A stretch of DNA of 64,000 bases from Thermoplasmata archaeon (GTDB lineage: Archaea; Thermoplasmatota; Thermoplasmata; Thermoplasmatales; Thermoplasmataceae), in the NCBI GenBank assembly GCA_021846395.1, contig JAJZXB010000003.1:1-64000 (forward strand), written 5' to 3'. Each line of letters opens with the position of its first letter. Position 1 is the first letter of the stretch. The notes under the pieces were generated by a model that did no database searches, was not told where the DNA came from, and saw only the letters and a list, made by a program, of their open reading frames with translations. Made by a program: the position numbers and the translations under genes. Shown in pieces: positions 15,378-64,000 of the stretch.

Positions 15378-15785
15378 ATGGATTTGGATTGCGAAGAATT
15401 TCACAGGTGGTTTGATCAGGCATTATATACCTATAACCTTATAGAGAGTGATATAAATAATAACGGATACAGCTGGGCATGTTTTAAGGCACAGCAGAGT
15501 GCAGAACTTGCTATTAAAAGCATTCTGATATCAGTAGGCAAAAATGCATTTGGGCATGGGTTATTAAAGTTATATAAGGACATATCTGCTATATTTGGAA
15601 ATGATGCTGATGTTGGAAATTCAGTTTCGTATTTGGATAAATTATACATTGCCCCAAGATATCCAGATGCATTTACAGAGGGATCCCCATGGGAGCATTT
15701 TACTTTGAACGATGCACTGCTATCTAAAGAATCGGCATTAAAAATCATGAACTACGTAAAAAAGGTGATGAAACAATGCCTTTAA
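15378..15785 (+). CDS. HEPN-domain protein of a HEPN/MNT pair
   Basis: A 135-residue all-helical protein. The segments WACFKAQQSAELAIKSILIS and GHGLLKLYKDI, together with LDKLYIAPRYPDAF, are the hallmarks of the HEPN family (PF05168-like) that pairs with minimal nucleotidyltransferases. The classical RX4-6H ribonuclease motif is not evident, so it may be a non-nuclease HEPN. The next gene encodes the MNT partner and overlaps by ten bases. TATA-like sequences precede the start. It is probably a toxin-antitoxin or nucleotide-signalling pair. Confidence 0.82.
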   Translation: MDLDCEEFHRWFDQALYTYNLIESDINNNGYSWACFKAQQSAELAIKSILISVGKNAFGHGLLKLYKDISAIFGNDADVGNSVSYLDKLYIAPRYPDAFTEGSPWEHFTLNDALLSKESALKIMNYVKKVMKQCL

Positions 15786-16147
15786 TAAACGAAATAAATA
15801 AAAGAAGAAAAGTGAAAAGTAATTTAATACAAATATTAAATACCTATTCTTTGGACCTAACTAAAAAATTTGGGAAAGTAACATTTGTACTATTTGGATC
15901 ATACGCAAGAGGTGATTTTAACCTCTGGAGTGATGTTGATCTTCTAATAATTTGCAATAAATTTAAAAATATAAGATTTCTTGATAGGCCCTATATCCTG
16001 CCTGCTTTATATGACGAAATAATTTATTCCGATACAATTTGCTGGGATTATGAAGAGGCAAAAAAGATGTTTAATAAAAAGTCCTGGATCGATACATTAA
16101 AAACATCACTGGTAATACAGGATGATTATGGGCTATTTAAAAAATAA
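15776..16147 (+). CDS. Minimal nucleotidyltransferase (MNT) partner of HEPN
   Basis: The 123-residue protein has the polymerase-beta-type signature LFGSYARGDFNLWSDVDLLI (39-58): GS followed by the two metal-binding aspartates Asp53 and Asp55. The family transfers NMP groups and in HEPN/MNT systems acts as the antitoxin, often by modifying the HEPN partner. It overlaps the HEPN gene by ten bases. The stop codon is followed directly by a 5'-truncated transposase fragment, so a mobile element broke off exactly at the end of this gene. Confidence 0.85.
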   Translation: MPLINEINKRRKVKSNLIQILNTYSLDLTKKFGKVTFVLFGSYARGDFNLWSDVDLLIICNKFKNIRFLDRPYILPALYDEIIYSDTICWDYEEAKKMFNKKSWIDTLKTSLVIQDDYGLFKK

Positions 16148-16872
16148 CATCTCTGTCTGATAATGATTACTATAGGAGAATTAACCTATATGAAATGAAT
16201 TATGGTAATGCCATGATTCAAAATAGGGAGAGGGGACAGAAAGAACTTGTGAATTTGGATTCACTTTATGGGCACAGGTGTAGGATTGTTGTTATGCTTG
16301 ACACTGAGAGGGGGAACAGGGAACGCATGGAACGTGATCTGATGATATCGGCACTGGAAATGGAACAATCAAAGGATAAGATTGCAAAGCTGAAATCAGG
16401 ATTAAGGCCCATTGTTAAACCATCCAAGGGTAGGAGGGGCTATACAATTGACAAAGGGGAGGAGGAAAATGCAAGAAAAATGAATGGCAAGTCCTTATTC
16501 TTCTGCACAGATGAAAAGATATCTGGAAGCGATCTCATAAGGGTATATTTCAGGAGGGGTGGTGTTGAAAAGGCATTTAGATACCTTAATGGAGATGCCT
16601 CAATGATGCCTGTAAGATACAAGCTTCCGGGAAGGGTTGAGGCATACCTGTCCGTTGTTTCCTTCATCTCATACCTTATTATTTCTGCGGTTATCTGGAA
16701 GATGGAAACAAACAAGATACCATTAAGTTACAGGGAACTCATAGAAAAGGCCTCCAAAATATATGAGGTTACAATGGCATCGGGAACAAAGAAAATATAC
16801 AGGTGGACAACCATTGGGAATGAGTTTGAGAAGCAGCTCAAACCATTCAACATAACGAAACTTCAAACATAG
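16148..16872 (+). pseudogene. 5'-truncated IS transposase (IS1634/IS4-like), C-terminal half
   Basis: Homology starts right after the preceding stop codon (frame SDNDYYRRINLYEMNYG) and runs to the natural-looking C-terminus; an ATG at 16195 lies inside. Recognisable parts are KPSKGRRGYTIDK, FFCTDEKISGSDL, YFRRGGVEKAFRYL with the catalytic Glu, and LPGRVEAYLSVVSFISYLI. The N-terminal half with the first two catalytic Asp residues is missing, so it cannot be active. A second, more decayed copy lies at 63575-64000. Together they show that this IS family has been mobile in the genome. Confidence 0.85.
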
Positions 16873-18673: not shown

Positions 18674-18720
18674 GTTAACTGCAATTTTTCTGTTATAATT
18701 TCATTCCTATTATCACTTCA

Positions 18721-18800
18721 ATAATAGGATTGCTCATATTTTAATGTGTATATTCCCAAAAGGAATGCCTTACAGAATGCATGCAAAGGGATGCCAAAGA
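18721..18800. repeat. Left copy of an ~80-bp imperfect direct repeat
   Basis: The core TCATATTTTAATG, followed by GTATATTCCCAAA, TACAGAAT and TGCAAAG, recurs in the same order and orientation at 26145-26224 with only scattered differences. This copy begins shortly after the acyl-CoA ligase gene. The two copies bracket the GC-rich segment that holds the group II introns and metal-transport genes, so they are candidate attachment-site or insertion-boundary repeats. Confidence 0.75.
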
Positions 18801-18851
18801 TATGGTGGACATTCTATGTTGGAAATTTTAGGCAATTTCTATTCTGATATT

Positions 18852-18970
18852 CTGAGTGTTGAATAAATTGCAATGTATATACTAATTATTAAATACAATT
18901 ACAATAGTTCATCAACGCAGAATTTCACAGTATCAGTGAGAAAAACTTAAATTACAATTCCAACACTCAG
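18852..18970. repeat. 10-bp inverted repeat abutting the group II intron 3' end
   Basis: CTGAGTGTTG (18852-18861) and CAACACTCAG (18961-18970) are perfect reverse complements 99 bases apart. The right arm forms the junction with the intron 3' end (…CTCTAC on the minus strand). It may be the terminal repeats of a miniature transposable element or a large hairpin used as intron target; no target duplication is obvious. Confidence 0.4.
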
Positions 18971-20996
18971 TAGAGTAGAGCCCTGGCATTGCCCAGTGCC
19001 CCCTCGTCGAACCGGACTGGCGGTTTTCCCGCATCCGGCTCACCGATTGCCTTCACGAAATGGCATTATGGCGTTCCCTGTTTGGAAAAATGTATTTGCC
19101 TGTGGATGGTTTTGTATCCATAATGGAGAGATGGAGTTGTGTAATCTTTGGATTCTTCCATTTGCTGGGTATGTTGTGCTGGTGGCAGTACATGTACATG
19201 AGCCTGTCCTGTGCGTAGTTCCATACGCTGTTGAATACCTCTGATGCAAGACTGTGTGAAAAATAGTTCCCCCATCCCCTTAAAATGGGTATGACTTTAT
19301 CCTTTGCTTCTTCTGGTGTTGCTGTTGAACGTGCTTTGTTTCCTGTGAGTTCCCGTATCTTTTCCCTTATTTTCTTCTGGGATTTCTGTGATGGAAACCA
19401 CCTTGTAGTATTCTTGTGCTTCTTTTTGGAGTATTTCCTTGTAAAATTGAAGCCCAGAAAATCGAAACCGTCATATGCTTCCACAACTCTGGTCTTCTCC
19501 TCGCTTAATTGCAACCCAATATCCGATATGATTTGTTTTAACTTCTCATATGGGTATGCAGGGTTGCGACCCACGAGTATAACCAGGTCATCAGCGTAAC
19601 GGATAAGGTGTGCGTTTTCCCCCTTCCACAGTCCTGAGGCTTTCCATGCCTTGTCTATCTGGTCAAGGAAGATGTTTGCAAGCAATGGCGATAGGGGTGA
19701 ACCCTGTGGCGTGCCCTTCTCTGTATCAATGATTTCATTGTCTTCCATGATGCCCGTGTTGATTATCATATTTATCAATTGCAGGAGTGAACTGTCTGTT
19801 ACCCTCTCTGCAATCCTGTCCATGAGTTTATGCCTGTCAATGTTGTCAAAGCATCCCCTGATATCTGCGTCTATGATGTGCGTGCATCCATAATTCAGGT
19901 ATTTGACAATCTCATCCACTGCATTGTGAGGGGATTTATCCGGTCTGAAGCCGAATGAATGCGGCTCGAACTGTGGTTCAAATACTGGCTCTATAACCAT
20001 CTTTATGGCTGCCTGCACTATCCTGTCCCTGACTGTTGGTATTGCCAATCCCCGTTTCTTTCCATTCGCTTTTGGTATGTAAACCCTTCTCAGTGGTTCT
20101 GGTTTGTACCTATGTTCTCTGAGTTCGTCCTGTAACTGTTTTAGCGAATTGTCTATGTCCTTCTCCATTTCCTTTATTGTTATTCCATCCACGCCTGGAG
20201 CACCGTGATTTATCTTCACGGCATTCCATGCTTCATACAGGATATCTATCCTGTACACCTTATCGTATAGAGAATGGAATTTTCTCGTATTATCTGCTTT
20301 AGCCATTTCGTATAGCATCGATTGCAGTTTGCTGACTTTATCGTTATTCTTCTTATTCTTCATGTTCTATACCTTCCCTTGTACAGTCAGGTAACTCTGA
20401 GAGCCCCAAACTGTTTTCAATGCATTGGCAAAAGTCAGGTTCCTTCGTGTCTGCCCCCATTGCAGGGGCTTCATTCCTACTATGGGCCTGTCCGACTGGC
20501 TGTACACCATCGGGTTGAATTTCACTTTTGCTTATATCAACCCTTTCCTCCGGGCTGTTGCATATATGGTAAATACCCATTATAGGGTTCTTTATGATTT
20601 CCATACATGCAATCCCTCTCATTGGAATGCACAGCCTCTCCCGTCTTCCTGTGGATAACCTTCGCCGCATGCAAGCCCTGTTACACCGAAACGTCCATGC
20701 ATCCATACCGGATGGGATACACGGTACTGCCTTTGCCCTGGACATACAGGCTCGGCACGTTCAATCACCGCATTGCTGCGGGCTATGCTCACGATGCTAC
20801 ATATAGGTTCACTTTCGTTCAAGCCTGCGGCTTCGCGTAGAGATTTCCCAGCCCCATCTCTGGGGTTGTATATTTCCCCTTGTCGGTCTGCTTCTAACGG
20901 AACTGTTGCCAGTCCATCTTTGACCCTCGCTTCGTATCTTCCGATTCTTAATACGTTGAGACTTTCACTCATGGCTACTCACCATTGACGGCGCAC
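18970..20996 (-). mobile_element. Group II intron, complete, with reverse transcriptase
   Basis: On the minus strand the element begins with the consensus GTGCG at 20996 and ends near CTCTAC at 18970. Domain V is clear at 19009-19041: AGCCGGATGC...GCATCC-type stem with a GAAA-like tetraloop region (GGGAAAACC) and a closing GTCCGGTTC. It lies twelve bases beyond the RT stop codon, and domain VI follows. The last six bases of the upstream exon (GGACAT) are complementary to ATGTCC in domain I (20740-20745), giving a plausible IBS1/EBS1 pair that fixes the 5' boundary. About 2.0 kb in all. Short open frames between 20353 and 20972 are ribozyme RNA, not proteins. Confidence 0.88.
19053..20363 (-). 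CDS. ltrA: Group II intron reverse transcriptase/maturase
   Basis: A 436-residue intron-encoded protein. RT blocks are intact: DADIRGCFDNI (165-175), GTPQGSPLSPLLANI (217-231) and the catalytic YADD (256-259), with FGFRPDKSPHNA before them. A maturase (X/GIIM) domain with LRGWGNYFSHSLASEVFN follows near residue 370. No HNH endonuclease domain follows, so mobility would rely on target-primed synthesis at nicked or single-stranded DNA, as in other endonuclease-lacking lineages. The gene sits in domain IV of the surrounding ribozyme. GC content is above the host average, consistent with recent import. Confidence 0.95.
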   Translation of the reverse strand: MKNKKNNDKVSKLQSMLYEMAKADNTRKFHSLYDKVYRIDILYEAWNAVKINHGAPGVDGITIKEMEKDIDNSLKQLQDELREHRYKPEPLRRVYIPKANGKKRGLAIPTVRDRIVQAAIKMVIEPVFEPQFEPHSFGFRPDKSPHNAVDEIVKYLNYGCTHIIDADIRGCFDNIDRHKLMDRIAERVTDSSLLQLINMIINTGIMEDNEIIDTEKGTPQGSPLSPLLANIFLDQIDKAWKASGLWKGENAHLIRYADDLVILVGRNPAYPYEKLKQIISDIGLQLSEEKTRVVEAYDGFDFLGFNFTRKYSKKKHKNTTRWFPSQKSQKKIREKIRELTGNKARSTATPEEAKDKVIPILRGWGNYFSHSLASEVFNSVWNYAQDRLMYMYCHQHNIPSKWKNPKITQLHLSIMDTKPSTGKYIFPNRERHNAIS

Positions 20997-21221
20997 ATGT
21001 CCGGCATATCATTCTTTTTTGCTGCCTTTTTCGGCCCCAATGTCCTGTGTACTACTTCTACATTCCACTTATAAGTTTTTTCGTAAGTACGAATGTTACT
21101 ATGTTCGAAATATATAAAGTTTCAAAAATTCAGACCTTACATGGCCACCACAGCGTATTAGAATAGTTATTTATGTAATGGAAGTATAGGGAAAATATAG
21201 TGGAGTTGGAGTGTGAGGAGG

Positions 21222-21302
21222 ATGAGTGATAAGCCACCTAGTAGTGATAAGATTATTGCGATTCTTGCAGTTGTTTTTGTCTATTCTCACATTAAAGTCT
21301 AG
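21222..21302 (+). CDS. Possible 26-aa single-helix membrane peptide
   Basis: ATG after a purine-rich GAGGAGG opens a 26-codon frame with a polar head (MSDKPPSSDK) and one hydrophobic helix (IIAILAVVFVY). The Shine-Dalgarno-like stretch touches the start codon, which is unusually close. It lies 108 bases ahead of the NRAMP-family gene in the same direction, whose downstream neighbour is also a small one-helix protein. Real translation is uncertain. Confidence 0.35.
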   Translation: MSDKPPSSDKIIAILAVVFVYSHIKV

Positions 21303-21410
21303 TGGTTCTGCTGTAGCTTATAAGAATTACATAATAAGGAGCGTATTATACCTTCTGGTCATACTGCCTGTGAGACGCATTTCCTACTATTCAAACAGGA
21401 GGTGTTGCCA

Positions 21411-22817
21411 ATGAGTTCATGGAATAAACACAAATCTGAAATCTCGAATTCAGAAATACTTCACAGAGTAGAGGAGTTGCCATTGGATGAAAGGCTGAGG
21501 GCAGAAGACCGGTTACACATGGAGTTACATCGTGAGAAGCATACCCATATATCTAGGCTTGAACTATTCTTCATGCTTTTGGGTCCTGGCATCCTTGTAA
21601 TGGTGGCCGACAACGATGCTGGTGGTGTGATAACATATGCACAGACTGGCTCTATTTTTGGTCTTGGGTTCTTCATTCCCTTCATGGTCTTGATGCTCCC
21701 CGTAGCCTACTTTGTACAGGAAATGACTGTGAGGCTTGGAGCAGTGACGCATAGGGGTCATGCAGAGATGATCTGGAAACGATATGGCAAGTTCTGGGGA
21801 GCGTTTTCGCTGTCTGATCTTGTGGTTGCAAATTTTCTCACATTCATCACAGAATTCATAGGCATAACGGTTGGTTTATCTGTTTTTGGAGTTGCACCGA
21901 TCATTTCGGTGATTGTATTTGTAACCCTCGGGATCTCTATTCAGCTATTTCTCAGGTATTACACATGGGAAAGTGTGTCACTCTTCATCGCGGCATTCAA
22001 TCTGGTATTCATTCCACTTTTGTTTTTTATTCCCAATCCGAATTGGTCACTGGTCGCTGAGAGTTTTGGCACATGGAAGATAAGTGGTGGAGCGAGCTCG
22101 TTGTTCATATACGTACTCCTGGCAAACCTTGGAACCACGATCGCACCGTGGATGCTTTTCTTTCAACAGCCCTCAGTGGTGGATAAGGGTCTTACAAAAA
22201 ACGATATAAAAAGGGGGCAACTTGACACCTTCATAGGATCCACGATAATGGTTGTAGTCGCAATATGCATAATAATTCTGACTGGTATGACAGTATATGG
22301 CACAGATAGCTATGGAACCATCGGAGTTGCTAAAATACTACAAACATTCGCAACAAAAGTAGGTGTGTTACCAATGAAACTCTTTGCTCTTGGCCTTGTA
22401 GAGGCGGGTTTCATTGCCGCAATAGCTATATCTGCCAGTACATCGTGGGCAGTAAGCGAGGCTTTTGGATGGAAAGGTTCAATAAATCTTCCGACACGTG
22501 ACAGAAAATCTCTGCGTTTCTACTTACCAAGCTTTGCGGCGCTATCTCTTGCTGCAGGAATAACACTAATACCTGGTGCTCCTCTGGGATACCTAAACCT
22601 CACCGTTCAGGTGATAGCTACCATATTTATGCCGGCTGCAATGTTGTTCCTCCTCCTGCTTCTGAATGACCGCGAAATAATGGGTGGTTATGTTAACAAG
22701 AAATGGCAGAATGTTGTGGGATTCAGCATAATAGGTTTCCTCATAATAATGAATGCACTCTACGGTATTTCTGTTGCCATGCCGGTTGTTTTTGCGCATC
22801 TGGTATCATTACTTTGA
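21411..22817 (+). CDS. NRAMP-family divalent metal transporter with atypical metal-site motifs
   Basis: A 468-residue membrane protein with about eleven helices. The start at 21411 is supported by AGGAGGTG six bases upstream; a GTG at 21402 lies inside that site. Helix 1 reads GPGILVMVADNDAGGVITY: the Asp of the NRAMP DPGN motif is kept (Asp69) but Pro is Ala and Asn is Gly. In helix 6 the usual MPHN is replaced (TTIAPWMLFF), losing the methionine that favours transition metals over hard ions. Such replacements recall NRAMP-related magnesium transporters (NRMTs), so Mg2+ or another hard ion is possible. GC content and codon use differ from the flanks, indicating transfer. A small membrane protein gene follows 11 bases later. 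Confidence 0.82.
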   Translation: MSSWNKHKSEISNSEILHRVEELPLDERLRAEDRLHMELHREKHTHISRLELFFMLLGPGILVMVADNDAGGVITYAQTGSIFGLGFFIPFMVLMLPVAYFVQEMTVRLGAVTHRGHAEMIWKRYGKFWGAFSLSDLVVANFLTFITEFIGITVGLSVFGVAPIISVIVFVTLGISIQLFLRYYTWESVSLFIAAFNLVFIPLLFFIPNPNWSLVAESFGTWKISGGASSLFIYVLLANLGTTIAPWMLFFQQPSVVDKGLTKNDIKRGQLDTFIGSTIMVVVAICIIILTGMTVYGTDSYGTIGVAKILQTFATKVGVLPMKLFALGLVEAGFIAAIAISASTSWAVSEAFGWKGSINLPTRDRKSLRFYLPSFAALSLAAGITLIPGAPLGYLNLTVQVIATIFMPAAMLFLLLLLNDREIMGGYVNKKWQNVVGFSIIGFLIIMNALYGISVAMPVVFAHLVSLL

Positions 22818-22828
22818 GAGGGGAGAAA

Positions 22829-23038
22829 ATGTCACAAAATCACAAAGGAAAGAAAGAGAATAACAAAGGAATGTCATCGTTTGATCAGTTCATGTTATCG
22901 CAGGAAATTAAGGTTCATGATAGGGTAGCAGTAAAGCAAATTACCCTCAACCGAAAAATAAGGATAGCATTCTGGTTCCTGAGGGGTTACATCGCAGTGA
23001 TGATTATCCTGGTGATCATAGGATTTACACACGTTTGA
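22829..23038 (+). CDS. 69-aa single-helix membrane protein downstream of the NRAMP gene
   Basis: ATG is preceded by GAGAGGGGAG, a good ribosome binding site. The product has a lysine-rich cytoplasmic head, a middle segment (SSFDQFMLSQEIKVHDRVAV) and one hydrophobic C-terminal helix (YIAVMIILVIIGF). Only 11 bases separate it from the NRAMP-family stop, so it is almost surely co-transcribed. No family is recognised. By position it may be an accessory or regulatory subunit of the transporter. Confidence 0.65.
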   Translation: MSQNHKGKKENNKGMSSFDQFMLSQEIKVHDRVAVKQITLNRKIRIAFWFLRGYIAVMIILVIIGFTHV

Positions 23039-24017
23039 ATAGGAATGCTTTGAAATATAATGTCTTACTACAGGAATTTTCTCGCAAGCGATCTGCACCT
23101 AATTATCCTTTGAAAAATGTGGGATGTGTACTGGTTAAGATACAAGGACGAGTTAAGGCAAAAAGAAATGGGAGGGGTGAATTTTTGTCGTAACAAAAGT
23201 CCATTCCCCGTAAGGTACCTGTGCGACACAAGGAGGGGGGAGTTACTCTTGACTAAACCTTTTCACAAGAAGGCATATTGTGGGAATACATTTTGAAATT
23301 GCGTTGGAAGAAAGGAAGTAATACAACGTGGAATACTGCTAATAAATAAGAAGAATCAAATAACATAAGTCGTACTTCTTTGATATTGTAGTTTGGAAAA
23401 CTACATGAATTCCAGATTATATGACAAGTTTGAGTCAACTCACAGTATCTATACACATACCTAAATCTGATCGTATAGAGGATATCATTCTGGATAGTCA
23501 TAATAGAATAATTTTGTAGTTTTATATACTATATTTTCACATAGCCCTTTAAGTTTTCTTTGCGAAACAACACTTGAACATTGTAATTTAATAACATAAT
23601 TATTTAATTTGTAATTGCATTCTCCAAGAATATAGTACCTTTTCCGGTTAACCTTTGAGAGTTTATCATCAGCAATAATTCTTTCCTTTTCATATTTATC
23701 TTTTTATTTCTGATCTAACGGTTATGCCATTGGTTGTTGTGGTATTTGCCATAATATTCACCGCCATATTTATTGATCGTGTTTCCATATGCTATATATG
23801 AGCATTCAAAATTGTCCACTGAATGGTTCTATTTTACATTCCAGAATTATGAAAGGAGTGGGGCTTGTTCCCAATAGATCTAATAATATTTGCATAGATT
23901 CCAGGTGGTTTATATAAAGGCAATGAGAACCTAATCTATCTATATAGGACACAATAACAGGACCATGTTATTTATCAAAGAATCTTTACAACCAGTGCAG
24001 CTTGGGGTTGTACAGGG
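23039..24017. other. Nearly 1 kb without a recognisable gene, inside the island
   Basis: No frame with family similarity or a credible start was found on either strand. One RNA-like hairpin stands out: GGGG (23174-23177) with CCCC (23206-23209) enclosing TTTTGT/ACAAAA around a CGTA loop (23189-23192). It lies about 140 bases after the NRAMP operon and may be a terminator or structured RNA. The GC content falls back toward host level after about 23.5 kb. The stretch from about 23.9 kb is the upstream exon of the intron-like element at 24018. Confidence 0.45.
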
Positions 24018-24660
24018 GTGCGAGCAAGCAATCGGACCGTAGCATTAAGTGAATTCGGAGCGTCGTAAGAAGTTCCACAAGAATACGGTTCAAGTGAAGA
24101 ATAGGTGAGTGTGATGAGCCTGTTGGTTGGAGGCGAAATCAGAATTCCCTGACAAGTTTGAGTATATGCATAAGGGAAACAGGGAGGAACCATGAACATA
24201 GAAGACCTATAAGGAGTTTACGGTTTTGCAATATTTATTATACATGGGGGGAATGCGGAATGCCAACCTCATGCATCGTTCATGGCTCGGCGGATGAGGC
24301 CATAGTAGTTATAATACCAGCGATAACAAACTGGAGGAATAAAGGACCTCTGGGTGTCCCTATAAGTGAGAATGCGGCATTACTGACATGTGGGGCATTA
24401 CGGATTACCAGAAATGGTTATTAACCGTAGCTGTTCAGGGTTACGTGGAATCTTGCAGCGTTATGCAGCCATATGAAAGGAAGGCGAAGTGTGTGTATAA
24501 CCGAAAGGAAGGCGAAGTGTGTGTATAACCGAAAGGGAGGGTAGCACATGAAATGCAACACTTGAAGCGGGATGCTCGAAATGAGCCGATCCGGAATTTT
24601 AGAGGGAAAGCTGGAAACAGAATTGGGAGAATCTGCCATGACAGGATGTCGTGGTTATGT
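24018..24660 (+). mobile_element. Probable group II intron fragment without reverse transcriptase
   Basis: The sequence starts with the group II consensus GTGCGAG. It continues with domain I-like blocks (GAATTCGG.GC.TCGTAAGAA, GGTGAGTG.GATGAGCCTG, GGCGAAATC) in the order seen in bacterial-type introns. A short frame near the end (MQHLKRDARNEPIRNFRGKA) looks like the beginning of an intron-encoded protein but stops after 37 codons. A hairpin at about 24576-24600 (GGATGCTC-GAAA-GAGC-CG-ATCC) partly fits domain V, though its base does not pair well. I read it as a truncated or ORF-deleted intron. Confidence 0.45.
24475..24530 (+). repeat. Perfect tandem duplication of a 28-bp unit
   Basis: The unit begins GAAAGGAAGGCGAAGTG and ends GTATAACC. 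Positions 24475-24502 and 24503-24530 are identical, and a third partial unit (GAAAGGGAGG) follows. It lies inside the putative group II intron fragment, in the part corresponding to domains III-IV. Confidence 0.85.
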
Positions 24661-24768
24661 TAGGATACTTCACAATAACTGCGCTTGCTCTCTACTCGAC
24701 CAGTTAGTTAACTTATAAAGTAACAGGTGCTTGGAGTATGGCCAAAACCCAAGATAGCAATAGATTTC

Positions 24769-25659
24769 TCATCTATCAACTGCTTCCTCGGATTCGGATT
24801 GAATTGTAAGATGAGTGACTCCATATTTGGACAGAATGTTTTCTATCTCTTTTTTCGCCTCATCTATCTCTCCAATGGACTGCCCGGGAGGAACTTTCAA
24901 ATGAAGGGTGGCCAAGCGCTGATGCTGGCAGATATCCCATATATGAAGATGGTGAACGTTCGGAAACTCATTCTTGATGGAGTCTTCAGCAGCCTTTATG
25001 TCTATTACAGTTCCTTCCATTAACATTGTGATGTTTCTGCTGAAAATTTTCCTGTTTCCATAGATGATGATAAAAAGCACAATATAGTTTCCAAGGTAGT
25101 CCACATAATACAGGGAAGAATAAAGAGCAACTATGGAAAATGCAAGTGCCATCAGTACAATTGCAACATCTTGTAGTGAGTGGAGGAATATTGCTCTGAA
25201 ATTGGATGATTCGTGTTTTTCCATGAATAAAGTGGCTATGATCAGGAGTGGGACAGATACTGCGGACGCATAAAGCGTTCCTGCTGCGGGAGTTTTTGTA
25301 TGGGTTATGAATAGCATTGTTGTATTTATAGCCGAATACGCGGCTAAAGCAAGAAACGCCATAATAACCGACACATTCATCAGGGTCTCAACCCGGTGGA
25401 AACCATAAGAATAGTGCTCATTTAATGGTTTCTTAGTTATCCAATTAACAAGAAAAACCAGAGATATCGAGAGGGCATCCAACACTCTGTCTGCTACCAC
25501 TGAGAGAGATAAGGGATTGCTCGTTGTTAAGTAAGAATGCAAGAATATTATCAAGACAATCCAGTAAATGATCGTGGCAAGTACATTGCCCTTTAGTCTA
25601 GATATTCTCCCTCTCATGTTATCACTCCTCGGAACTTCAACCTCATAAATAAAATTCAT
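24769..25659 (-). CDS. Cation diffusion facilitator (CDF) metal efflux protein
   Basis: A 296-residue exporter with six predicted helices and a C-terminal cytoplasmic domain. Family features: a helix 2 acidic pair in VVADRVLDALS, the loop HYSYGFHRVETL, the helix 5 metal site HSLQD (H-x3-D), and the C-terminal VHHLHIWDI segment of the ferredoxin-like domain. CDF proteins exchange Zn2+, Fe2+, Mn2+, Co2+ or Cd2+ for protons. In helix 2 the usual H/DxxxD pair is read as D-R-V-L-D. It lies in the same island as the NRAMP-type importer, so the island appears to deal in metals. Base composition is richer in GC than the host. Confidence 0.85.
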   Translation of the reverse strand: MNFIYEVEVPRSDNMRGRISRLKGNVLATIIYWIVLIIFLHSYLTTSNPLSLSVVADRVLDALSISLVFLVNWITKKPLNEHYSYGFHRVETLMNVSVIMAFLALAAYSAINTTMLFITHTKTPAAGTLYASAVSVPLLIIATLFMEKHESSNFRAIFLHSLQDVAIVLMALAFSIVALYSSLYYVDYLGNYIVLFIIIYGNRKIFSRNITMLMEGTVIDIKAAEDSIKNEFPNVHHLHIWDICQHQRLATLHLKVPPGQSIGEIDEAKKEIENILSKYGVTHLTIQSESEEAVDR

Positions 25660-25680
25660 AGTTCTGTGTGAGAGATCGTT

Positions 25681-26061
25681 TTATATCACCTTTATGGTCC
25701 ATAATGAACTGCCTCCCTGGTGCGATATTAGATCCTTGCTCTCCCCAATGTTTAAGATTGTACTGAAAAATGCCCTAAGAACGTAAGGATGCATACTTAT
25801 CACTGCCAATATTCTATCCTTTCTTATTTCCCCTGGTATGAGGAGAATTCTCCTGACAAAGTCGCTGAATTGTTTCTTCAATTCCCACGATTTGGTATTA
25901 TCTAACATTTCTTTAGGGGATGTTTCGTTTATTTCACAATAGTGCCCAATGTTCCTAAGTGATACGCCGATACTTAAATGGTATCTTGTTCCTTTGTTAT
26001 CCCACCACCTCAGAATTTTCTCATTTTTCAATAATTTCCCGTGCTTCGGCCGGAAGATCAT
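25681..26061 (-). pseudogene. Tyrosine integrase N-terminal fragment
   Basis: A 126-codon frame whose residues 12-70 (NEKILRWWDN, VSLRNIGHYCEINETSPKEM, QFSDFVRR) match the SAM-like core-binding domain common in archaeal phage/XerA-type integrases. After about residue 72 the similarity is lost and the catalytic domain (R...HxxR...Y) is absent. It therefore cannot recombine DNA. Its place just inside the right-hand direct repeat is where an island integrase would be expected. It could instead be a small DNA-binding protein that reuses the domain. Confidence 0.6.
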
Positions 26062-26144
26062 ATTTTACCATGTCTTTGTGGTTAATAACATGTTCGATTA
26101 ATAGTTAAAATGTGTGGGAAAAGAACTGCACGGAAAAACTATCG

Positions 26145-26224
26145 ATAATAGAATTGTTCATATTTTAATGGGTATATTCCCAAATATAACACCCTACAGA
26201 ATACTGCAAAGGAATGCCATAGAG
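26145..26224. repeat. Right copy of the ~80-bp imperfect direct repeat
   Basis: Direct counterpart of 18721-18800: ATAATAG.ATTG.TCATAT followed by TTTAATG.GTATATTCCC, then CTACAGAAT and TGCAAAGGAATGCCA. Most differences are single substitutions plus one short gap. It follows the integrase fragment and precedes the MntA/HepT genes, marking the right limit of the GC-rich segment. Confidence 0.75.
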
Positions 26225-26376
26225 AAAGTTTTTAAAATATGAATGATAAGGAAAAATTTTTATTTTATTTATTGTTCAATATTTATTAATATTAATAATG
26301 AAATGATAAACGAAGATGATAAAAAAAAACAATTTCAAATATTATTAAACTTAAAGGTAAAAAGATAAAGTGAATA

Positions 26377-26679
26377 ATGTTATTTGGTTCCTACTCAAGA
26401 AATGAACAAAGAATCGATTCGGATGTGGACATCTGCATTTATTTCGATTTGAAAGAAAATAAAAGATTCAATACCAGATTACTATTGCTGGGCTTTCTAA
26501 ATGAGAAATATGATATACAACCATTTCAGGGTCTGCCAATTTATGTTAAAATGGAAGTATTGAAAGGCAATCTTTTATATTGCAAAGACTATTCATTTTT
26601 TTATGATATCGCCTACAATACCATTGAGGAATACAATTTGTTTGAGCAAAGTTATAAATTATATTTATATGGTGATTAA
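26377..26679 (+). CDS. MntA-type nucleotidyltransferase antitoxin, N-terminus damaged
   Basis: The ATG at 26377 opens 100 residues beginning MLFGSYSRNEQRIDSDVDI, the GSx(n)DxD signature of MntA. Normal MntA has some 20-25 residues before this. Here those residues can be traced upstream but are broken. An ATG at 26303 starts MINEDDKKK into a run of nine A (26321-26329); the natural continuation (ISNIIKLKGKKIK) is in another frame and then meets a TGA at 26371. Translation may restart at 26377, or the A-run may slip. The partner HepT gene follows three bases after the stop. MntA neutralises HepT by AMPylation in the characterised system. Confidence 0.7.
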   Translation: MLFGSYSRNEQRIDSDVDICIYFDLKENKRFNTRLLLLGFLNEKYDIQPFQGLPIYVKMEVLKGNLLYCKDYSFFYDIAYNTIEEYNLFEQSYKLYLYGD

Positions 26680-26682
26680 ATA

Positions 26683-27111
26683 ATGCCCATAATAAGAAAG
26701 ATTATCATACTGGACAGGTTAAAAGAAATCGAAAATTCCCTTGATTTAATCACAAATAATATTCCAGAAAATTATGGGGATTTCAAAAACATGGGTCTAA
26801 TAAAGGATGATATAATGAAACGTGAAGAATTCATAATTCAAAATATAATAGATATATGTGCTATTATTTCTTCAGATATGAAGCTGGAAAAACCTTATTC
26901 CGAGTATGATATAATTGACAATTTAAAAAAGTCTGGAATTTTGAGTGAGGATTTATCCTCAAAAATTAAGGAAATGAAGAGTTTAAGGAACATACTTTTG
27001 CACAGGTACGGTAAAATCAATGATGAACTGGTTTACAAATCTCTAATAAATAATTTGGAAGATGTGGAACAATTTGTTAAGAATATCAAGATTTTATTAA
27101 ACAAGAATTAA
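26683..27111 (+). CDS. hepT: HepT-type HEPN ribonuclease toxin (DUF86)
   Basis: A 142-residue helical protein. Near residue 108 it has SLRNILLHRY, the R-x4-H-x-Y motif of HepT, in which Arg and His form the RNase site and the Tyr is the residue AMPylated by MntA. The N-terminal helices (RLKEIENSLDLI) and the FIIQNIIDICAII segment fit DUF86. The toxin frame is intact while the antitoxin start upstream looks damaged. The genes are separated by only three bases. This is a different HEPN class from the one at 15378-15785. Confidence 0.85.
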   Translation: MPIIRKIIILDRLKEIENSLDLITNNIPENYGDFKNMGLIKDDIMKREEFIIQNIIDICAIISSDMKLEKPYSEYDIIDNLKKSGILSEDLSSKIKEMKSLRNILLHRYGKINDELVYKSLINNLEDVEQFVKNIKILLNKN

Positions 27112-27199
27112 TAATTTCATAATTGCTCTATCAAAAATAATTCCTATGAAGGCAAATATTAAAATAAAACCTTATATAATGTTATTCAATAACGACAAT

Positions 27200-37708: not shown

Positions 37709-38650
37709 TTATTCTTCTATTGTAAGATTCAATTTCTCTGTTAATTCCTTATATCTGTTTCTGATTGTAACCTCTGTTACACCAGCAACCTCAGCTATTG
37801 CTCTCTGCGTTCTCCTTTCACCTGTTATCAATGATGCAATATATATTGCAGCTGCCGCGACTCCTGTAGGCCCTTTTCCAGATGTTAGATCGTTATCAAC
37901 AGCCATTTTAAGGATCTCTTCAGCTCTCTTTCTGGCCTCCATCGATAATCTCAATTTGGAACAGAATCTATTTACATAATCATCAGGTTTTGATGGTAAT
38001 ATATTCAATTTAAGATATCTTGCCATTATACGATATGTTCTTCCTATTTCCTTCTTTTTTACCCTTGTTACAGATGCAATTTCATCCAGAGTTCTTGGAA
38101 CATTTGTTATTCTGCATGCTGCATAAATTGAACCGGCAACAACACCCTCAATTGACCTTCCTCTTATCATATTCTGTTTAACTGCCTTTCTGTAAATAAC
38201 CGCTGCTGTTTCACGAACATCGTTTGGAATGCTCAAATTTGATGCCATTCTTTCAAGTTCCTGCAATGCTTGTGAAAGATTTCTCTCAGCAGCATTGGAA
38301 ACTTTTATTCTCTTCTGCCATTTCCTCAAACGATAAAGCTGTGCCCTATTCCTTGTGGGAATGGATTTTCCATATGAATCTTTATTTTTCCAGGATATAT
38401 CTGTTGATAAACCCTTGTCGTGAATTGTGTATGTCATTGGAGAACCAGTTCTTGCCCTGCTCTCGCTCTGTTCCGAATCGAATGCTCTCCATTCTGGACC
38501 CTCGTCAATATAACTATCGTCTATAACCAGACCACAGTTAGAACACACAAGTTCACCCCGCTCATAATCTCTAACAAGCTGTGAAGAACCACATTCCGGG
38601 CATTTATCTATTTCATAAATATTTTTTTTCTTTTCTTTTTCATCAACCAT
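37709..38650 (-). CDS. tfb: Transcription initiation factor TFB
   Basis: 313 residues from the ATG at 38650, preferred over a GTG nine bases earlier because GGTGA lies just upstream as a ribosome binding site. An N-terminal zinc ribbon (CPECGSSQL...CSNCG), the B-reader/linker region ([20 protein letters not shown]), and two cyclin repeats, the second ending with the helix-turn-helix [14 protein letters not shown] that reads the BRE, are all present. It recruits RNA polymerase with TBP. The gar1-tfb order with nearly no gap is a common archaeal pair. A paralogue is encoded head-to-head at 39096. Confidence 0.97.
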
Positions 38651-63462: not shown

Positions 63463-63574
63463 TCTCTTTAACTTTTAAAATGAATTAGTTCATTACAATG
63501 TTTGAATATATCTTTTTGCCGATTCAATTGCTTCTTTCTGGTCCGGATGACGGTGCTACTGTACTGAATTCAAG

Positions 63575-64000
63575 TCCCATTGTTAAACCATCTAAGGGTA
63601 GGATGGGTTATACAATTGACAAAGAGGATGGAGAAAAGGCAGGAAGAATTGATGGCAGTCCCTTATTCTTCTGCACAGATGAAAAGATATCTATAGGTGA
63701 TTTCATAAGTGATGGTGTTGAAAAGGCATTTAGATACCTTAAGGGAGCTGCCTCACTGATACATGTAGGATACCAGCTTCCGGGAAGGGTCAAGGCATAC
63801 CTGTCGTTGTTTCCTTCGTTTCATATCTTATCATTTCTGTGGTTATCTGGAAGATGGAAACAAACAAAATACGATTAAGTTACAGGGAACTCATAGAAAA
63901 GGCCTCCAAAATACATGGGGTTACAATGGCATTAGGCACAAAGAAAATATACAAATAGACAACCATTGGGAATGAGCTTGAGAAGCAGCTCAAACCATTC
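63575..64000 (+). pseudogene. Decayed copy of the IS1634/IS4-like transposase, running off the window
   Basis: Begins with CCCATTGTTAAACCATC, which is identical to 16407-16423 in the other copy, and follows it through GYTIDK, FFCTDEKIS, GVEKAFRYL and LPGRVKAYLS. Relative to 16148-16872 it lacks about five codons between the DEKIS and GVEKAF blocks. It shifts frame after about 63820 (PSFHILSFL), and has an in-frame stop where the other copy has Trp (near 63957). The 5' half is absent. The copy is cut by the window end. Confidence 0.88.

Follow-up and report, generated by a model that had tools for sequence, protein, structure and literature searches.

Between a fatty-acyl/AMP-ligase (acyl-CoA-ligase-type) gene and rpS8e, the intergenic site of a Thermoplasmatales archaeon harbours approximately 8 kb of genuinely imported DNA that has brought genes of Mg/Mn-type uptake and of metal efflux into an acidophilic archaeon. 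The stretch probably represents a mosaic genomic island of foreign genes and mobile-element debris at an insertion-prone site. Its interpretation as a single integrative unit is not established, and the link between the bounding repeats and the integrase remnant fails its test. According to the mosaic interpretation, donors of higher G+C content would have supplied an NRMT-type importer with a small membrane partner, a CDF exporter and a tRNA-targeting tyrosine integrase; these foreign genes would have arrived after the split from the sister species, and the integrase would have decayed later. MITE-like elements and other dispersed sequences with copies elsewhere in the genome would also have inserted into the stretch, a group II intron having presumably homed into the terminal repeat of one MITE.

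Organization, base composition and codon usage

All positions refer to the window, i.e. the complete stretch of 64,000 nucleotides that was analyzed. The following features were delimited (own genome, G000; same-genus sister genome, G001; contigs, C):

18701..27158: stretch absent from G001, where the ligase-type gene and rpS8e are 520 bp apart
18718..18800 (+): left direct repeat, 83% identity to the right copy
18801..18969 (+): left part of MITE-like element X, terminal inverted repeat TATGGTGGACATTC..TGTTGGAAAT, no ORF
18970..20996 (-): group II intron, 2027 nt, interrupting element X within its right terminal inverted repeat (TATGCCGGACAT^TGAGTGTTGGAATTG)
19053..20363 (-): group II intron reverse transcriptase (RT)/maturase, 436 aa, intact (PF00078, PF08388, TIGR04416)
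20997..21008 (+): right tip of element X past the intron (minus-strand reading TATGCCGGACAT)
21010..21128 (+): element W, non-coding and dispersed, with a copy of 76% identity at G000 C8:12311-12427
21402..22817 (+): NRMT-type SLC11 transporter of 471 aa, predicted to take up Mg2+/Mn2+ (PF01566)
22829..23038 (+): 69-aa one-TM protein, 11 bp after the NRMT stop
23584..23907 (+): dispersed non-coding element Y, copies at G000 C21, C16:64048 and C2:153 with 76-84% identity
24010..24700 (+): group II intron-like fragment Z, ORF-less and 5' truncated, copies at G000 C22:144110 and C1:15573
24769..25659 (-): CDF cation exporter, 296 aa, intact (PF01545, PF16916 and TIGR01297 above cut-off)
25681..26061 (-): integrase pseudogene, 126 aa, fusing residues 1-72 to residues ~243-290 of a ~430-aa tyrosine recombinase
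26089..26103 (-): leader motif TATTAATCGAACATG, which follows the tRNA 3' end in relatives (att side); conserved motif retained
26142..26223 (+): right direct repeat, 83% identity to the left copy
26377..27111 (+): MntA/HepT toxin-antitoxin pair beyond the right repeat (NF047752, below cut-off; NF047751)

The gene content of the original prediction (RT-bearing intron, NRAMP-type transporter with small gene, intron-like fragment, CDF exporter, integrase remnant) was confirmed by these assignments, the NRAMP-type and CDF genes by their Pfam domains. The G+C content amounted to 36-51% over most of the region from 19.0 to 26.0 kb versus approximately 33% in the flanks, which agrees with the predicted enrichment; it was unevenly distributed between the repeats (intron, ~41-51%; NRAMP gene, 40-48%; CDF gene, 36-43%), with an AT-rich gap of 27-33% G+C at 23.25-24.0 kb. 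Based on a CAI-like index built from 24 host genes of the 64-kb window, the genes of the RT, the NRAMP transporter, the small protein, the CDF exporter and the integrase remnant reached values of 0.57-0.60, compared with 0.695 +/- 0.021 for the host genes (n=24), and their GC3 of 0.42-0.49 likewise differed from that of the 24 host genes (0.298 +/- 0.028). The codon usage of the MNT and HEPN genes beyond the right repeat was host-like. The proposed check of composition and codon usage accordingly separated five foreign genes between the repeats from native-like genes outside, and in this respect the island presents the features of an integrative genomic island.

Such islands, with an integrase, flanking direct repeats and metal-related genes, are documented from archaea of acid mine drainage (Thermoplasmatales and relatives; PMC12302457). 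Odd composition and codon usage, patchy distribution, metal genes, integrase and direct repeats are common to both; in contrast, the island described here has no tRNA at its ends, is strongly mosaic and has no clean empty site in relatives.

Several other features of the neighborhood were recorded. A further HEPN/nucleotidyltransferase toxin-antitoxin-type pair is located at 15378-16147, ~10 kb from that at 26377-27111 and in opposite gene order; the two pairs flank the ligase gene and the island on either side. A transposase fragment at 16404-16848 (named from its sequence; no Pfam match) is repeated with 86% identity at 63572-64000, near the right end of the window, and an inverted pair of ~870 bp at 37742-38605 and 39980-39117 (66% identity) likely corresponds to paralogous genes in opposite orientation.

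The direct repeats and the dispersed elements

The imperfect direct repeats of ~80 bp that had been predicted to bracket the segment were aligned in the same orientation with 83% identity over 83 columns, a kind of pair for which zero matches are expected in shuffled window sequence. Their membership in a dispersed family, a possibility raised by the original prediction itself, was rejected: No third copy was present in the own genome and none in the 116 other genomes of the order, i.e. the window's genome was the only positive one of 117 searched. The viral contigs did not match the one exact 26-base core pattern of the repeat that was searched. An identity as tRNA ends or known RNA was also rejected, since neither ARAGORN nor Rfam gave a match. 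Scanning of the window and of 12 other genome stretches (~115 kb) revealed no second non-coding pair of direct repeats of this type.

The intron near the left repeat displayed all typical features of the RT-bearing group II intron that had been predicted: an ORF with RVT_1 and maturase domains, a domain V/VI match above the gathering score (RF00029 at 18970-19043), a D1-D4 match below it (RF02005 at 20674-20965), the 5' end GTGCG (GUGYG type) and defined exon junctions that were read directly from the sequence. Its flanks rejoin as TATGCCGGACAT/TGAGTGTTGGAATTG to one terminal inverted repeat of the ~180-bp non-coding element X, of which whole or partial matches (74-86% identity) are present in the own genome (C2, C21, C22, C1, C18) and in the sister genome (C61, C50). 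As the intron lies inside an element that recurs elsewhere in both genomes, it is read as a separate insertion. On sister contig C17 (L233), an intron remnant is preceded by the same 12 bases as the intron of the window. RT and maturase domains, the RF00029/RF02005 matches and the GTGCG end are shared with other archaeal group II introns, whereas the place of insertion sets the present one apart: Insertion into a MITE-like element, at its terminal inverted repeat, was seen in two species of the genus; a limited literature search revealed no paper on a group II intron at such a position. The second intron-like structure of the original prediction corresponds to fragment Z, which itself has no Rfam match; homologues of its 5' part, however, overlap group-II D1-D4 matches (L234, RF02003 with 52.7 bits; L200, sub-threshold with 32.4 bits).

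According to an alternative explanation, the repeats would belong to a short dispersed element comparable to X, W and Y, of which two copies have survived; their position at the ends would be due to chance and the island would have been built piecewise. The other debris families indeed have few copies at 74-86% identity, close to the 83% of the repeats, and the unrelated DNA at the corresponding site of the sister genome indicates that the site accepts insertions. Nevertheless, this explanation is considered doubtful because a third copy is missing from the own genome and the 116 others, close pairs of this sort are uncommon in the analyzed stretches, and the repeats coincide with the ends of the foreign-looking part. 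It has to be conceded that a two-copy pair exactly at these ends is hard to explain by chance under the mosaic interpretation as well, and that the nearly identical odd codon usage of all five genes would also fit a single donor. In the preferred mosaic reading, the repeats delimit the foreign-looking part and were probably made or trapped on its arrival, though not by the integrase of which the remnant is left.

The integrase remnant

The relatives of the remnant matched by tblastn were proteins of 428-441 aa that are common in the order; compared with these, ~170 internal residues and the C-terminus are missing. The 126-aa ORF is therefore neither intact nor merely an N-terminal domain but a two-piece pseudogene: The remnant predicted just inside the right repeat is real, whereas its description as the N-terminal domain had to be replaced by that of an internally deleted gene. 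With internal deletion and loss of the C-terminus, the functional integrase of an integrative island is lacking. For a full-length relative, the matches to the XerA-type model and to Phage_integrase stayed under the curated cut-offs in both cases.

Upstream of the integrase, 18 of the 21 loci of the family carry an intact tRNA gene that has the same orientation and ends at a distance of ~50 bp; in most loci, a TATTAATCGAA-type motif follows it. Three loci (L210, L211, L219) possess end repeats that comprise 16-24 bp of the tRNA 3' end. Tyrosine integrases of ~430 aa occur throughout the order in several copies per genome, ~50 bp behind genes of tRNA-Ala, -Leu, -Val, -Pro, -Arg and -Cys. The remnant of the window shares with the tRNA-3'-end elements of Thermoplasmatales (e.g. 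L210, L211, L219, L220) the homology to the integrase family and the conserved upstream leader motif; it differs by its pseudogenization, by the missing tRNA (neither a tRNA nor a tRNA 3' end was detected at the remnant by ARAGORN, Rfam or eye) and by repeats of 83 bp that are not tRNA ends and are far longer than the tRNA-derived repeats of the related integrases. In addition, the right repeat starts ~40 bp farther out than the leader motif (26103-26089). Given the tRNA siting of the family, its end repeats of 16-24 bp and this offset, the 83-bp repeats are poor att-site candidates for the integrase of the remnant.

These data bear on the original prediction of one integrative unit that subsequently lost its integrase, i.e. 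of one element integrated site-specifically with the 83-bp repeats as attL and attR. Foreign origin, absence from the nearest genome, presence of an integrase remnant and the non-dispersed nature of the repeats were substantiated; moreover, the codon usage is uniformly foreign between the repeats and host-like outside, and the repeats are unique to the locus, with the remnant near one of them. Still, site-specific integration of one element appears unlikely: The integrase family resides behind tRNA genes and no tRNA or tRNA end is present here; the repeats are longer than the known end repeats, 17% diverged and located outside the att-side motif; the sister site revealed no single repeat copy (the alignment score was borderline), and the stretch missing there extends to 27158; the NRMT and CDF genes have different nearest relatives and are never found together elsewhere in the genomes examined; and the intron probably represents a separate insertion.

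Comparison with related genomes

Both flanking genes are kept in the sister genome G001, with homology on the ligase side up to window position 18700 and on the rpS8e side from 27159 (by reading, the promoter region of rpS8e). The difference between the two species (18701-27158) therefore extends a kilobase beyond the repeat-bounded part and takes in the MNT/HEPN pair, homologues of which are located on C46 of G001. The empty-site comparison that had been proposed with the original prediction thus confirmed the absence of the island from a close relative at the same site, yet the missing stretch passes the right repeat and the expected single repeat copy was not seen. The 520 bp of G001 scored against the repeats at the 95% level of shuffles, and G001 was consequently not accepted as an empty site with a single copy, although its intergenic DNA is so far diverged that a copy may have escaped recognition; its 520 bp are without recognized homology and resemble unrelated DNA rather than a clean junction. 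In a second genome, G002, a different gene adjoins rpS8e. The site is prone to insertion, and no clean empty site exists among the genomes compared.

The divergence of the repeats (16%; JC 0.18) is small compared with that at 4-fold sites between the sister species (43.5%; JC 0.65), which fits an arrival after the species split: If the copies were identical on arrival, this event would be about one quarter as old as the split, though with a wide error owing to only 82 repeat sites.

That the stretch is instead ancestral to the genus, with a loss from both G001 and G002, would agree with the 520 bp of DNA in place of a clean junction and with the different neighborhood of rpS8e in G002. This is regarded as improbable because the foreign codon usage is still unadjusted to the host and the repeats, provided that they date from the arrival, have diverged only about a quarter as much as the species. 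An assembly or binning error that joined foreign DNA to the contig, as the differing base composition could suggest, is highly improbable in view of the single 146-kb contig, the DNA syntenic with G001 on both sides of the island and the recurrence of its dispersed elements elsewhere in the own and the sister genome.

Provenance and predicted function of the cation transporters

The CDF exporter is of full length with Cation_efflux and ZT_dimer domains. Its nearest relatives were found in G011, G027, G031 and G008 (54%), those of the NRMT gene in G018, G228 and YP4.bin8 (81-82%); apart from the window's genome, no genome examined contained close relatives of both (search depth 60-293 genomes). 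Judged from this present-day distribution only, the two genes may have arrived independently. In the maximum-likelihood tree, the NRAMP gene of the window was placed inside the Thermoplasmatota together with G018, G228 and YP4.bin8, a position that points to another Thermoplasmatales lineage as the probable donor. In the same tree, the NRMT of a Thermoplasmata genome (L275, G039) nests within the Micrarchaeota clade, which suggests transfer between these archaea. Megablast of the island region against plasmids gave no match, and only short RT matches were obtained with phages.

The "NRAMP" protein carries the binding-site motifs ADNDAGG on TM1 and TTIAPWM on TM6, both conserved in virtually all of the 81 sequences; among proteins of solved structure, EleNRMT (7qia; 1.7e-51) is its best relative. 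In EleNRMT, the changes of Asn to Gly and of Met to Ala open the site for hydrated Mg2+, and its transport of Mg2+ and Mn2+ is not coupled to protons (PMC8806188). As the TM1 glycine in place of Asn and the TM6 alanine in place of Met are both shared with EleNRMT and with NrmT of C. acetobutylicum (PMC4072509), the protein is of NRMT type and thus a predicted importer of Mg2+/Mn2+.

A small membrane protein associated with the NRMT gene

The partner gene distinguishes the NRMT of the window from the branch described in PMC4072509: There, the gene of an MgtE-N-like protein is present, here that of the 69-aa one-TM protein. The latter possesses one strongly hydrophobic, C-terminal stretch and invariant F, R, Y, M and G positions (17-row alignment), and is covered by no Pfam or NCBIfam model. 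Of 80 related loci, which belong to Thermoplasmatota, Micrarchaeota, Bacillota, Acidithiobacillus and other bacteria of acid sites, 78 have its gene behind that of the NRMT. Among 293 genomes of the phylum it was present in six, each time beside an NRMT gene or its remnant (in G035, both genes are decayed); no match to the small protein was obtained in genomes whose NRMTs are more distant (43-49%). A small literature search found no prior description, and the protein is apparently an undescribed membrane-protein partner of a magnesium transporter. For this SLC11 branch in acid-living archaea and bacteria, it is tentatively proposed, as a possibility falling somewhat short of the probable, that the two genes may form an undescribed two-part Mg2+/Mn2+ uptake system with the small protein as dedicated subunit or regulator, and that the pair may be mobile as a cassette.

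Implications

The island itself represents an ordinary kind of acquisition. It is, however, a clear worked case in which the combination of direct repeats and integrase remnant would wrongly suggest a single integrated element. Two of its parts are worth following: The group II intron that targets a MITE terminal repeat constitutes a small novelty for the ecology of archaeal introns, and the 69-aa protein, if a true partner of NRMT, would be an unrecognized accessory part of a transporter family with solved structure.
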